Shown: positions 1 through 4,527 of the stretch, in pieces
Position numbering within the stretch: the stretch's first letter is position 1
Layout: the number at the start of each line of letters is the position of its first letter
Assembly (NCBI GenBank): GCA_020217165.1
Contig: JAIWOE010000135.1
Coordinates: 1 to 10,386 of the forward strand
Direction: 5' to 3'
Length of the DNA stretch: 10,386 nucleotides
Source of the DNA: Desulfovibrio sp.
GTDB lineage: Bacteria; Desulfobacterota; Desulfovibrionia; Desulfovibrionales; Desulfovibrionaceae
Translations under genes and position numbers: made by a program
The notes under the pieces: generated by a model
What the model saw: the letters and a program-made list of their open reading frames with translations, nothing else
What the model was told of the DNA's origin: nothing
The model's database searches: none

Positions 1-253
1 CTGATTCACGAAGGGATTACGACCGACAGGCCGGCAATGTCCTGCCCCGTGACGGGGCAGGAGTGGGCTCTGTACTGACCTGATTCACGAAGGGATTACG
101 ACAGGATGCCCGCGGCGCATGTCACGTCGCAGGCATCCTCCCCTCTGTACTGACCTGATTCACGAAGGGATTACGACATCATCCCGCCCCCACCCGCAAT
201 GCGGGCAGGAGGAGGTGGCTCTGTACTGACCTGATTCACGAAGGGATTACGAC

Positions 254-441
254 TCCGACGGCGAAGCCTGCTCGAAGCAGGCTTCGCAAATCTCTGTACT
301 GACCTGATTCACGAAGGGATTACGACGGCAAAGTGGAGGTCGTCATCAATTTGCACCACCTGGATCTCTGTACTGACCTGATTCACGAAGGGATTACGAC
401 TGCTCGAAGCAGGCCTCGCAAACATCAACCTCCCTCGTCCA
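254..441 (+). repeat. Two related spacers sharing a 22-nt core
   Basis: The spacer at 254-291 and the spacer at 401-441 share 22 nt (269-290 and 401-422) with one mismatch (T283 against C415). The shared piece starts 15 nt into the first spacer and at the first base of the second, so they are shifted captures of related sequence rather than a duplicated repeat-spacer unit. In the first spacer the core is half of a 12-bp hairpin, GCGAAGCCTGCT / AGCAGGCTTCGC with loop CGA (261-287). Confidence 0.9.
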
Positions 442-976
442 CTCTGTACTGACCTGATTCACGAAGGGATTACGACCGGACGTTTTTGGACGTCCTGAAC
501 GAAAAAACATGTGCTGAACTCTGTACTGACCTGATTCACGAAGGGATTACGACTGAGGTTAATGCCGGCCCCGAAGGAGTCGAGGCCGACAACTCTGTAC
601 TGACCTGATTCACGAAGGGATTACGACGCGTGTACACAGGTGTACAAATTGTCCGTGGAGACGAAAATCTCTGTACTGACCTGATTCACGAAGGGATTAC
701 GACAAACGCCCGCCGCAGCAGGGCTTCCATCGCCGCCGCTAATCCGCTCTGTACTGACCTGATTCACGAAGGGATTACGACTGGTGCCCGCGGGCACCAC
801 ATTCACGGCAGGTGACGGAAGACTCTCTGTACTGACCTGATTCACGAAGGGATTACGACGGCAGATCAGAGGCTAGGCGGTTTCCCACTGCCGGGCCGGC
901 TCTGTACTGACCTGATTCACGAAGGGATTACGACCGGGAGAAAATCTCCCGGGTATGTTTAGTCATAAATTTGGCC

Positions 977-1011
977 CTCTGTACTGACCTGATTCACGAA
1001 GGGATTAAGAC
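977..1011 (+). repeat. Degenerate terminal CRISPR repeat
   Basis: This is the last repeat of the array. It matches the other copies except for a C-to-A change at 1008, which turns the 3' end from ATTACGAC into ATTAAGAC. Such decay is typical of the oldest, leader-distal repeat and fixes the array orientation as left to right. No further copy follows. Confidence 0.93.
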
Positions 1012-1185: not shown

Positions 1186-2310
1186 ATGTCTGCCACCGGT
1201 CAGCCTATCCACTTATGCATTGTTTCCGAACAGCTTGTGCCCAACCTGCTCCCGGTTTTGCTGCCTGGGCACAAACCCCAGGCGTGCATGCTGCTCGCCA
1301 GCCAGGCCATGCAGGGCCAAGCGCAACGTCTCAAGGACATGCTCTCGGTTCGAGGAGTGCAAACCAGCGTCCACTCCATGCACGACACCGACCTGGACAC
1401 GGCCTTCGGCCAGCTGGCTAGCCTGGAGCCTTCACTGGCCGGTGCTGCGGTTACCTTGAACATCACTGGGGGCACCAAACTGATGACGCTGGTGGCGTAC
1501 GAATTCGCCAGGGAGATCAAGGCCCGCGTCGTGTATGTGGATACCCGCAATCAAAGGCTGATCCAGCTTGCGCCAAAGAGGCTGGAGACGCCCTTGCCCG
1601 ATGCGCTTACCGTGGCCGATGCGCTGGCTTGCGCTGGCTACAGCGTGGAGAAGAAACACCAGGGTGCGGTACCGGCCCAGCTCAGGGACTTGGCCGAAGA
1701 ACTTATCCGTAACCTGTCACGATTTCAGAGTATTCTTCCGGTGCTCAACCATGTTGCCATGCGGGCCTCCGAAACTATGGTCACCTCGTTGGAAACAGGA
1801 GAATTGCGCAAGCCGGCCTTGCTTGAGTGCCTTTCGCTGTTTGAAAAGGCGGGGTACTGCAGTGTTGCCGACGATGCCGTGGTGTTTGCTGATGATGAGG
1901 CTCGGAAGCTGATGAATGGCGGCTGGTTGGAAGTGTACGTGGCCTCTGTGGCCCATCGACTCCGCGGCGCGGGGGGGATGTATGACTGGTGCTCCAATGC
2001 GAAAATCACCAACGACCATGGTGTTCGCAATGAAGTGGACCTCGCTTTCACCAGCGGAAACCGTCTGCATCTCATTGAATGTAAAACCCAGCACCCCAAG
2101 AGCATGAATGGCAAAGACGATGCCCCACACTACAAGATCAAAGCGCTGCGAGATCATCTCGGTGGCGTCATGGCAAAGGCTATGCTATGCAGTGCCATTT
2201 CACTGCGCTCCGTTGATAGGGAACGCCTAGCAGAATACAAAATCAGAGTTGTGGAAGGCCCTGCCCTAGTGCATCTCGAAAAAACATTACGCCAATGGAT
2301 GAATGAATGA
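1186..2310 (+). CDS. Card1/Can2-like CARF nuclease (DUF1887 family)
   Basis: The 374-aa protein has two parts. Residues 1-150 form a CARF (Rossmann-like) ligand-binding domain with the signature NITGGTK at 92-98, and VVYVDT at 115-120. The C-terminal part is a PD-(D/E)xK nuclease with GGWLEVYV at 245-252, NEVD at 282-285 and IECK at 297-300, so D285, E298 and K300 are the likely catalytic set. Known family members (Card1, Can2) are activated by cyclic tetra-adenylate from Cas10 and cut single-stranded DNA and/or RNA or nick DNA. Length and domain order fit that family. The ATG at 1186 follows AAGGAG by 5 nt. The stop overlaps the next start by 4 nt (ATGA), so the two genes are co-translated. 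The choice between Card1 and Can2 activity cannot be made from sequence alone. It is probably an ancillary effector of the type III system whose array lies just upstream. Confidence 0.9.
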   Translation: MSATGQPIHLCIVSEQLVPNLLPVLLPGHKPQACMLLASQAMQGQAQRLKDMLSVRGVQTSVHSMHDTDLDTAFGQLASLEPSLAGAAVTLNITGGTKLMTLVAYEFAREIKARVVYVDTRNQRLIQLAPKRLETPLPDALTVADALACAGYSVEKKHQGAVPAQLRDLAEELIRNLSRFQSILPVLNHVAMRASETMVTSLETGELRKPALLECLSLFEKAGYCSVADDAVVFADDEARKLMNGGWLEVYVASVAHRLRGAGGMYDWCSNAKITNDHGVRNEVDLAFTSGNRLHLIECKTQHPKSMNGKDDAPHYKIKALRDHLGGVMAKAMLCSAISLRSVDRERLAEYKIRVVEGPALVHLEKTLRQWMNE

Positions 2311-3620
2311 ACACCAAATCCCAAGCCATCAAGGTTTTGCTTGTTTCCGTGGGCGGCACACCTGCCCCCATTATTCACAGTATTCTGCAACAACAACCAG
2401 AATATGTGATATTTTTTTGTTCGAAATCAACTCGCGCAGTTGTGCAACAGTCCATCCGACCCGCTTTGGATATTCCGCTAAAGGATACCGAAATCATCAC
2501 GACCAACGAGGAAGATCTGGTGCAGTGTTGCAGGGTGCTGTTCCAGAAACTTCCGGAAGTGTTGGAGATGTGGGGCTTGGATTACCACGACCTCGCCGGG
2601 GACTTTACCGGTGGTACCAAGGTCATGTCTGCTGCAGTGGCCATGGTCCTGGCCGGCATGGGGTGCCGGTTCTCCTACGTGGGCGGAGGGTCCCGGAACA
2701 AGAACGGACTGGGTCAGGTCGAGGATGGCGCCGAATCCTTGCGCATCATCCAAGACCCCATGGATGTCCTGATGGTCGATCGCCTCAGAACAATGGAGTC
2801 GTTGTTCAACTCTCGCCAATACTTGGCCATGGGTAGTTTGGCCGCAGAAGTATCACGCTCCACCTCGGCCAGGGCTCCTTTTTTTCGCGCCATGGAGGAT
2901 GTGGCAGCAGGCTATTATAGTTGGGACAACTTCGATTACCGCACTGCAATGCATAAACTAGCCGCAGCACGCAGCATTCTTAGAGCACAAGAAGCCCTTG
3001 ATGGCACGGGCGTCATTGCTCATTTTCTGCTGCAGATGGAGAACAACATCAACTTTCTCAACTCGCTGTCGCCGGAGTTGGAACTGCTGCAAAAACGGAC
3101 GTCCAGCAAGATTCAAAGTGGGGCGTCATCCATATCGCCTGCATTGGTGCAGGATCTGGTTTCCAACGCGATTCGTTGTGCCGAACAAGGCGAGCGCTAT
3201 GATGACGCCGTGATTCGCCTTTACAGTGCTGTGGAAAAGCTGGCCAAGCTTCGGTTGTTGATGACCTACGGGCTGAACAACTCTGCACTCAATCCAGACT
3301 CCTTGACGCACCAGGGTGCAAGAGATTTCCTGGCGTCCCGCTGCAGCGACGAAACGCCTCCCCTCAAGCTTCCTTTGCAACGCAGCTACGAATTGCTGGA
3401 AGTCCTCGGCGATTCCTTGGGGGCAACATTCATGAAGCATGCGGATGAGCTTCAAAAACTCCAGGACTTGCGCAACCACTCCATCCTTGCCCATGGAATC
3501 AATTCTCTTGGAAAGGAAAAATACGAGAGCATGCTCAATATCACACTGAATTTCCTTGAGATGGATGCGCAACACTTGCCCCGCTTCCCGCAGATGGCCT
3601 GGAAGGGGCTCGGATACTGA
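2307..3620 (+). CDS. CARF-HEPN protein, TIGR02710/Cas02710 family (Csm6/Csx1-like)
   Basis: The 437-aa protein has an N-terminal CARF-type domain of about 150 residues, with SVGGTPAPI at 14-22 and DFTGGTKVMS at 99-108; these are the loops that hold cyclic oligoadenylate in this superfamily. A helical middle (about 160-300) leads to a C-terminal HEPN-like segment. That segment has the helix DDAVIRLYSAVEKLAKLRL (299-317) and the motif RNHSILAH (389-396), an R-x6-H version of the HEPN RNase active site. The architecture and the ending QDLRNHSILAHG are those of the TIGR02710/PF09670 CRISPR-associated family, as I recall it. It is predicted to be a cytoplasmic, cOA-activated RNase. Its ATG lies within the stop of the upstream CARF nuclease (ATGA), so expression is coupled. 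Base composition looks less GC-rich than the rho-prs block, fitting a transferred module. Biochemical activity of this exact subfamily is inferred. Confidence 0.85.
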   Translation: MNTKSQAIKVLLVSVGGTPAPIIHSILQQQPEYVIFFCSKSTRAVVQQSIRPALDIPLKDTEIITTNEEDLVQCCRVLFQKLPEVLEMWGLDYHDLAGDFTGGTKVMSAAVAMVLAGMGCRFSYVGGGSRNKNGLGQVEDGAESLRIIQDPMDVLMVDRLRTMESLFNSRQYLAMGSLAAEVSRSTSARAPFFRAMEDVAAGYYSWDNFDYRTAMHKLAAARSILRAQEALDGTGVIAHFLLQMENNINFLNSLSPELELLQKRTSSKIQSGASSISPALVQDLVSNAIRCAEQGERYDDAVIRLYSAVEKLAKLRLLMTYGLNNSALNPDSLTHQGARDFLASRCSDETPPLKLPLQRSYELLEVLGDSLGATFMKHADELQKLQDLRNHSILAHGINSLGKEKYESMLNITLNFLEMDAQHLPRFPQMAWKGLGY

Positions 3621-3729
3621 ACCGACTGCAACGGACAAAAGTATCCAGGGACATGACCCGTTACGACCTTAGGGAGACACGACTTCTTACGAGGTCTGCG
3701 TGTTGGGGGACATCTCCAGGGTGTCGGGG
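3621..3729. mobile_element. Possible terminal region of the IS21-type remnant
   Basis: This short non-coding stretch lies between the stop of the CARF-HEPN gene and the end of the istB remnant. On the minus strand it carries several GTCCC/GTCTCC-type words (for example TGTCCCTGG at 3646-3654 and TGTCTCCCTAAGG at 3667-3679), similar to the repeated motifs of IS ends. An inverted near-copy, TGTCCCCTAAGG, is at 4675-4686. I could not define exact IS termini or a target duplication. Confidence 0.35.
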
Positions 3730-4285
3730 TTAGGGGACTGAACCGCACCGGGCCCTTGAGCCGATAGGAGCGGCCGGTGACGTTGACGACGTGGTTGCGG
3801 TGCAGCAGACGATCCAGGATCGCCGTGGCCATGACCTCGTCGCCAGCCAGGATTTCCGGCCAGTCCTTGACGGATTTGTACGTGGTGATGATGGTGCTGC
3901 GCCATGCGTGACGTGGGCGTAGCGCGAGTTGACGACACGGAAGAACAGGCCCGCCTCCTGCCTGGACAGGGGCTGGAATCCCGTCTCGCCGATGACCAGC
4001 AGCGCGGATTTCAGGTATTTCACCCCGCGCAGACGCTGCAAGGGCCGGTCAGCGTCCTTTTCACGGCGTGCAGCAGGTCTTCGAGGGTGTAGAAGGCCAC
4101 GGAGAAGCCATTTTCCACGCCTTGACCCCCAGGGCGACGGAAAGATGCGTTTTGCCCGTGCCTGGTGGCCCCTGGATGAGGATGGTTTCGTGTTGCCGGA
4201 TGTAGGCGCAGGTGGCCAGCCCACGTGTTTTTTGCCCGTGGACGCACTTCTGCTTGCAGAACGGCTGATTGGTGAACAAGGAGCG
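3730..4285 (-). pseudogene. istB: IS21-family IstB helper ATPase, broken by frameshifts
   Basis: Pieces of one IstB protein occur in order in different minus-strand frames. First comes LATCAYIRQHETILIQGPPGTGKTHL with the Walker A motif GPPGTGKT at 4148-4171. Then ENGFSVAFYTLEDLLHAVKR follows after a one-base loss near 4119, and GVKYLKSALLVIGETGFQPL after another near 4058. After a third shift near 3900 come ITTYKSVKDWPEILAGDEV and ATAILDRLLHRNHVVNV. The Walker B region reads VIGETGF where VIDE is usual, so a catalytic Asp is lost. The first 80 or so residues of a normal IstB of about 250 aa are missing, and no IstA transposase is present. This is a dead IS21 remnant. Confidence 0.85.
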
Positions 4286-4290
4286 GATGC

Positions 4291-4527
4291 ATGAAAGTCC
4301 CCAACGGTCAGCAAATGGCCAAAACTTGGCCTTACACGCGATACAAGAGTTTCGAGGCGTCTCTGCGCAAGGCTGCGGAACAATGGTTTAGCAAACGGGG
4401 ACACGAAACCCATCCCAAGATGGGGTACTGTCTCGCCCGTCATGATCTGTGGCCCAAGAATCTTATCTGTGAAGATGTCGCGGATTACATTCTAATTCTA
4501 ACTAACAGCTTACCCGGTATACGATGA
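4291..4527 (+). CDS. Small hypothetical protein, 78 aa
   Basis: The ORF starts at an ATG preceded by AAGGAG with a 7-nt spacer, a strong ribosome binding site. The product is basic and aromatic at the N-terminus (residues 1-30 include KTWPYTRYKSFEASLRKAAEQWF) and then has RGHETHPKMGYCLARHDLWP and a hydrophobic stretch DYILILTNSLPG. No known domain was recognised. It begins only a few bases beyond the truncated 5' end of the istB remnant, on the opposite strand, so it could be the surviving front of a gene cut by decay of the mobile element, or a chance ORF. The last residues before the stop give no sign of a natural domain end. No paralogue is seen in the window. Confidence 0.45.
   Translation: MKVPNGQQMAKTWPYTRYKSFEASLRKAAEQWFSKRGHETHPKMGYCLARHDLWPKNLICEDVADYILILTNSLPGIR

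Follow-up and report, generated by a model that had tools for sequence, protein, structure and literature searches.

A CRISPR array at the start of a 10,386-nucleotide stretch of Desulfovibrio sp. DNA, taken together with the arrays of its relatives, suggests that CRISPR systems of this kind prefer to store DNA that forms hairpins. The stretch (hereafter the window) is the entire contig 276 of a draft genome of 2.96 Mb that comprises 340 contigs and is 87% complete. Our favored reading, which we consider probable but far from assured, is that type III-A adaptation by a Cas1-Cas2 free of reverse transcriptase (RT) preferentially captures DNA able to fold back on itself. The mechanism is most likely the structure preference already published for RT-free type III-A adaptation; as far as the literature searched extends, what is new is that this preference has left its imprint on arrays from nature, most of them from Deltaproteobacteria, and that the hairpin lies inside the spacer.

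The window begins inside the array (1..1011, plus strand), which consists of 14 repeats of 35 nt (CTCTGTACTGACCTGATTCACGAAGGGATTACGAC), the first of them shortened by the contig start, and 13 complete spacers of 38-44 nt spanning positions 24-976. The last repeat (977-1011) carries one change, as expected of a leader-distal end. Because csm5 and a repeat-free stretch come before the array in two related loci (L035 and L037), the leader of the window array would lie to the left, outside the contig, and the window would hold the old, leader-distal end. Straight after the last repeat, at 1012-1085, is an open frame ending in an acidic, aromatic tail (DDDFQPRYDNDDY).

Five stems in these spacers had been singled out in the earlier note, and all five are present where it had located them. 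Spacer 1 (24..67, plus strand, as are all that follow) contains a stem of 10 bp with the 3-nt loop TGA at 40-62 (stem p 0.0015, energy z -2.8). Spacer 2 (103..142) contains an interrupted stem of 8+6 bp at 103-139 (stem p 0.0075, energy z -5.3), folding with a 1x1 internal loop at -24.1 kcal/mol, and spacer 4 (254..291) a stem of 12 bp with a 3-nt loop at 261-287 (z -5.4), a length matched in 0 of 2000 shuffles. Spacer 11 (782..824) begins with a perfect 18-nt palindrome at 782-799, which amounts to a 7 bp stem around a 4-nt loop (stem p 0.023, z -2.0), and spacer 13 (935..976) has a 7 bp stem with an AAA loop at 935-951 (stem p 0.0205, z -2.9). Spacer 6 (401..441) holds only one arm of a hairpin and represents the same kind of site as spacer 4. 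Stems were counted when perfect and of at least 7 bp with a loop of at least 3, and expectations were drawn from 2000 sets of dinucleotide shuffles, spacer 1 entering the window statistics from position 25, one base short. By this count 5 of the 13 spacers carry a stem versus 0.40 expected (0.5 in a repeat run of the shuffles), and none of the 2000 shuffled sets reached five stem spacers, the maximum being four. The observation made in the window is confirmed by this folding check, and the rough expectation of 0.3 in 13 spacers given at the time was close to the shuffled value. The weaker stems then proposed (178-218, 477-518, 554-592 and 628-668) fared less well: none was significant by stem length (p 0.10-0.65), and only 554-592 drew support from energy (p 0.046). 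Seven of the 13 spacers (178-218, 327-365, 401-441, 477-518, 628-668, 704-746 and 860-899) reached p 0.05 by neither stem nor energy.

To the right of the array lie a gene for a Card1/Can2-like CARF nuclease, a type III CRISPR ancillary effector (1186..2310, plus strand; PF23400 and PF09002 over cut-off; best solved relative Can2 7bdv, E 1.1e-40), and one for a TIGR02710 family CARF protein with a Csm6-type HEPN domain (2307..3620, plus strand; 182 bits vs a TIGR02710 cut-off of 83.9; PF09670). Right of these CARF genes follow apparent broken transposon sequence, tRNA-Pro, rho and carD, along with other housekeeping genes named by eye. On the minus strand of 3650-4520, broken frames resemble, by eye, a decayed IS21-type IstB helper gene and are followed by a truncated ORF; one plus-strand fragment in the same interval had no Pfam match. 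Neither cas1 nor cas2 is found between the window array and the Card1-like gene, where relatives have cas1, as if the cas1 next to the array had been deleted or moved, and no cas1 was found in the window's own draft genome at 87% completeness.

Within 288 genomes of the same bacterial family, the window repeat recurs at E 0.001 or better in two others, G113 (89% identity over 35 nt) and G105 (92% over 26 nt). Their contigs, read together, show cas10, csm2, csm3, csm4, csm5, a leader-like stretch and an array on one contig, and an array end, a plain cas1 and then the Card1-like and TIGR02710 genes on another. In G105 (locus L037), TIGR02578, TIGR01870, TIGR02582, TIGR01903 and TIGR01899 all score over the curated type III-A cut-offs, and an ORF without a family match stands at the usual cas6 place; the array is located between csm5 and cas1 across two contigs, which by eye seem to join through 16 bases common to their ends. 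In L038, a locus of the same genome, two consecutive cas2 genes (2252-2813), both over the TIGR01573 cut-off, follow cas1. The order of the Card1/Can2-like and TIGR02710 genes in L038 is that of the window, and the protein of 1186..2310 is 30% identical to its homologue there. Across the 57 array loci of the Cas1 clade described below, relatives of the Card1/Can2-like and TIGR02710 proteins occur in 24 and 25, respectively; at least one Csm gene occurs in 39 and none in the other 18, on the DNA fetched and with effector type judged by Csm queries only. Cas1 in these related loci is of the ordinary kind, about 386 aa long. Judged by its repeat, by the order of the genes to its right and by its ancillary proteins (its own effector and adaptation genes not being assembled), the window array probably belongs to a type III-A system with an RT-free Cas1-Cas2 like that of these relatives.

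The hairpin excess is real and general in this Cas1 clade. Loci were gathered by Cas1 similarity, blind to their spacers, from family members (Cas1 matches taken by rank, ORF length and contig position) and from the 80 best-ranked among 278 relatives detected in a public genome collection; by record title these are mostly Deltaproteobacteria with a few other names. Eleven of the 80 copied family loci already in the set, and 23 of the 69 new ones had no usable array. With 37 spacers sharing 22 nt with another removed, N-containing spacers removed and loci L218-L221 left out, the set came to 1429 unique spacers from 57 loci (11 family, 46 other), or 1442 with the window's 13. Without the window, stems of at least 6, 7, 8 and 9 bp were present in 196, 89, 36 and 18 of the 1429 spacers versus 99.3, 23.1, 5.5 and 1.2 expected from shuffles, and the clade ratio was 3.99 (95% interval 3.08-4.95 by bootstrap over the 57 loci). 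When loci with at least eight unique spacers are considered, window included, 31 of 42 lie above expectation and 11 lack any stem of at least 7 bp. Loci with Csm genes on the fetched DNA gave 52 of 947 spacers vs 14.9, those without such genes 37 of 482 vs 7.4. Family members alone gave 13 of 202 vs 4.4, so that the statistical power derives largely from loci beyond the window's family. The ratio was largest for loops of 3-5 nt (33 vs 6.1) and least for loops of at least 15 nt (11 vs 5.2), with 26 vs 5.7 at 10-14 nt.

Part of this effect is background, since type I arrays and intergenic DNA also stand about twofold over shuffles. Type I arrays of the window's bacterial family (nearly all I-C, with one I-E-like array of 58 spacers and some near-I-C repeats; 113 of 2378 spacers dropped for 22 nt in common with another) held stems of at least 7, 8 and 9 bp in 51, 12 and 4 of 2265 spacers vs 26.5, 5.6 and 1.2. 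Once all spacers were cut to 34 nt, III-A still surpassed I-C at 7 bp or more (58 of 1429 vs 37 of 1682, P = 0.003), at 8 bp or more (27 vs 10, P = 0.001) and at 9 bp or more (17 vs 4, P = 0.0015). For the non-array DNA of the fetched loci, on which ORFs were called crudely, stems of at least 7 bp were counted in 142 of 6587 coding pieces vs 119.1 and in 64 of 1326 intergenic pieces vs 27.0, with 335 mixed coding/non-coding pieces (11 vs 6.9) left out. When matched for GC, natural coding DNA would give 30.5 and intergenic DNA 60.7 stems of at least 7 bp where 94 of 1442 spacers had one, and 1.4 and 3.9 of at least 9 bp where 20 did. The excess is specific to reverse-complement geometry, mirror repeats being present at 35 vs 28.8 and parallel complements at 28 vs 19.0; the repeat excess is in part unspecific, direct repeats reaching 57 vs 31.1, much as in type I arrays (58 vs 32.5). 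The bias to fold-back DNA that the earlier note had proposed as one of its explanations is supported, recurring in the 57 other loci as a group and withstanding type I, natural-DNA, mirror and direct-repeat controls; its suggestion of RT-Cas1 is not supported, nor is that of terminators for the two window spacers with a plausible target.

The same backgrounds bear on an alternative in which adaptation is blind to structure and the recorded elements are themselves rich in palindromes, as origins, transfer origins, regulatory regions and REP-like repeats may be. It draws support from the intergenic host DNA, which is 2.4-fold over shuffles, and from spacer 26 of L154, which with its GTAGGGGCGACC arms resembles a dispersed repeat; moreover, the comparison was made with host DNA. 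Yet even if every spacer were intergenic, the counts would exceed the prediction at both stem lengths, most of the excess is missing from the type I arrays of the same bacterial family, and window spacers 4 and 6 read as coding. We consider this explanation unlikely, if deserving of serious attention.

Spacers 4 and 6 are the only window spacers with a plausible target, and their coding character lends no support to the idea, raised in the earlier note, that terminator regions are targeted. In reverse complement, spacer 4 reads CEACFEQASPS and spacer 6 reads WTREVDVCEACFEQ (translated by eye); they have 22 nt in common save one change, which is synonymous in the frame read. The degenerate codon pattern of the peptide led to a match of 23 of 23 nt to spacer 4 in two viral contigs (L136 and L137), inside a 70-aa protein with two CxxC motifs. 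This small protein (FICEACFEQAVYC; L136 7515-7727, L137 around 4654) is encoded beside a replicative-helicase-like gene that we take to be DnaB-like. The two-CxxC protein is probably kin of the target of spacers 4 and 6, which plausibly derive from within a phage gene and would give a crRNA antisense to its mRNA.

No credible target was found for the other window spacers. The whole array matched one phage record (E 4) and six plasmid records (E 0.9-3), all at chance level, and the matches listed for the 288 family genomes, the best one or two candidates per genome, comprised only other arrays and short weak matches, with a best E outside arrays of about 0.001. Among these listed matches, spacer 10 (704-746) showed short ones of roughly 20-30 nt in many family genomes (query about 705-745), attributable either to chance in GC-rich DNA or to conserved host-like sequence. 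Searched against phages, the arrays of L183 (7,921 bases), L070 and L069 gave none, none and one weak match. Eight scans of viral contigs gave matches in two and none in six; the matches of G105 spacers were located in one case within coding sequence and in the other within a hairpin that resembles a terminator, and were too short to be decisive. In L179, spacers 1, 3, 4, 6, 7 and 8 come from versions of a single hairpin site with CTAACGR arms and differ by a few bases in their end points, apparently a recurrent acquisition site, and spacers 24 and 27 of L191 likewise represent one hairpin site acquired repeatedly with shifted ends. Many sites lacking long stems were also taken more than once: of 37 overlapping spacer pairs, 6 involve a stem of at least 7 bp. 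By open-frame counts, hairpin spacers are not separable from other spacers.

Under the favored reading, in which the fold-back DNA itself is preferred, the adaptation step performed by an ordinary RT-free Cas1-Cas2 would take up stretches able to fold back in preference to others. The substrate would most likely be single-stranded or extruded hairpin DNA, exposed during replication or transcription, and the entire hairpin is contained within the captured spacer. The bias would act at acquisition and on DNA, with Cas1-Cas2 or a helper nuclease recognizing the fold. Stems start at the first spacer base in 16% of cases (natural DNA 12%, shuffles 9%) and at the second in 10% (natural DNA 10%, shuffles 7%); stem ends show no clear coincidence with spacer ends, and no cleavage geometry is therefore indicated. 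The RT-free type III-A systems of this large clade are expected to use no PAM. It is conceivable, and we advance it only tentatively, that the fold replaces the PAM, such that the internal hairpin serves as a positive signal and Cas1-Cas2, or a nuclease working with it, takes up single-stranded DNA of ~36-42 nt in folded form.

The placement of the bias at acquisition was approached through the age of the spacers. From the leader end, successive fifths of the arrays (arrays of at least eight, duplicates kept) contain 18, 24, 15, 12 and 23 hairpin spacers among 291, 269, 275, 265 and 295; these figures reveal no trend with array age, and this flat profile points to acquisition, not retention. 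If hairpin spacers were instead kept longer for the better protection they confer, for example through a palindromic crRNA that recognizes transcripts of both strands, a clear increase at the old array end might be anticipated, and none is apparent. Type III systems require an antisense crRNA, and a palindrome could thus serve in either orientation; window spacers 2, 1, 3 and 4 indeed match their own reverse complement at 26, 24, 24 and 24 positions. Across the clade, however, such a match extends to at least 26 positions in only 9 of 94 hairpin spacers and to at least 30 in one, with a median of 20. Targeting of both strands was judged unlikely on that count, too few hairpin spacers being near self-complementary, and differential retention as a whole seems to us quite improbable.

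The earlier note had also raised the possibility that structured RNA enters the array through an RT working with Cas1, a proposal that finds no support in the relatives, whose loci have an ordinary Cas1 with no RT found beside it in the fetched DNA. The left end of the window array is absent from the contig, which leaves room for such a gene, but the window's own draft genome (87% complete) yielded no RVT_1 match. No RT was found beside the clade Cas1 in the fetched DNA, where four weak matches of an RT-containing query proved to be Cas6; the same query recovers all seven RT-Cas1 proteins of the family. Those seven loci (L084-L090) encode fusions of 876-940 aa with RVT_1 and Cas1 domains in 7 of 7 and a Cas6 domain over cut-off in 5 of 7, N-terminal in most, and they provide a natural comparison for RT-free type III-A adaptation. 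Their arrays are without excess, stems of at least 7 bp being present in 2 of 108 spacers vs 1.98 expected; these are small numbers, and a 3.85-fold excess would yield so few with probability 0.018. Together with five further loci outside the III-A clade (2 of 84 vs 1.06), the non-clade total is 4 of 192 vs 3.0. More favorable to RNA capture is that the target strand, the expected mRNA, is slightly more structured than the crRNA strand, by 0.078 +- 0.028 with RNA parameters and 0.044 +- 0.017 with DNA parameters. This asymmetry, not expected from a model based purely on double-stranded DNA, fits folding of the transcript-sense strand as either DNA or RNA and is not decisive. All told, we regard RNA capture as very unlikely. 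Chance, in the sense of one extreme array out of many, is refuted for the clade by loci that were collected blind to spacers and show the same kind of excess, and we give it scarcely any credence except as a possible source of the window's extra height, the array having been picked for looking extreme: its 5 of 13 against a clade rate of 6.2% (P = 0.0008, lower than in any other of the 42 loci, window included, that have at least eight unique spacers) makes it the extreme of a real trend, standing above even its own clade.

It is not settled how spacers are chosen by RT-free type III systems in the absence of a PAM, and a preference for fold-back DNA bears directly on it. With length-matched controls, a signature legible in natural arrays opens this question to tests in any lineage that has been sequenced, and the clade of Cas1 proteins named here is available for biochemical tests; the answer would also matter for which phage and plasmid regions come to be remembered. 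In the literature searched, no account of hairpins within natural spacers was found, although Zhang et al. (2021) might contain one, and the parts of PMC8482600, PMC5513706 and PMC7515739 (on Thermus) that were available yielded nothing on the subject. To call the selection rule undescribed was nonetheless too strong, as the structure preference of RT-free type III-A adaptation is already published (PMC9048733, in part); the available part of that source lists as unsolved whether type III Cas1-Cas2 itself recognizes secondary structure.

Several known systems invite comparison. The plasmid-borne type III systems of Thermus and Rhodothermus resemble the present clade in having no RT annotated in the regions fetched, but unlike it they are mixed III-A/III-B loci. 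Three of their repeat types with a similar 3' end (GGGGATT[GA]CGAC) hold hairpins in 7 of 109 unique spacers vs about 2.9, an excess that is suggestive only, the 109 having been picked from 166 unique spacers of nine repeat types of which the other 57 held none (about 0.9 expected). The RT-Cas1 type III systems of Marinomonas and others have type III adaptation in common with our clade and differ in an RT that is fused or adjacent, none having been found here (PMC5513706 and PMC11014452, each in part). The III-A system of Staphylococcus epidermidis (Aviram et al., 2022) is RT-free as well and prefers rRNA and tRNA genes in adaptation, a preference tied there to transcription and free DNA ends (PMC9048733, in part). 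Closest of all is the RT-free III-A system of Streptococcus thermophilus (Zhang et al., 2021, doi 10.1093/nar/gkab1193, via PMC9048733, in part), which, like the clade described here, takes structure-forming DNA, preferring single-strand origins, oriT, attenuators and rRNA/tRNA genes, a preference that the host's type II-A system did not show. There, on the same partial account, the evidence consists of regions enriched among new laboratory spacers and of the encoding strand, with hairpins seen as a double-stranded substrate; here, by contrast, it comes from the natural arrays of other bacteria, in which both arms and the loop of the hairpin lie inside one spacer.
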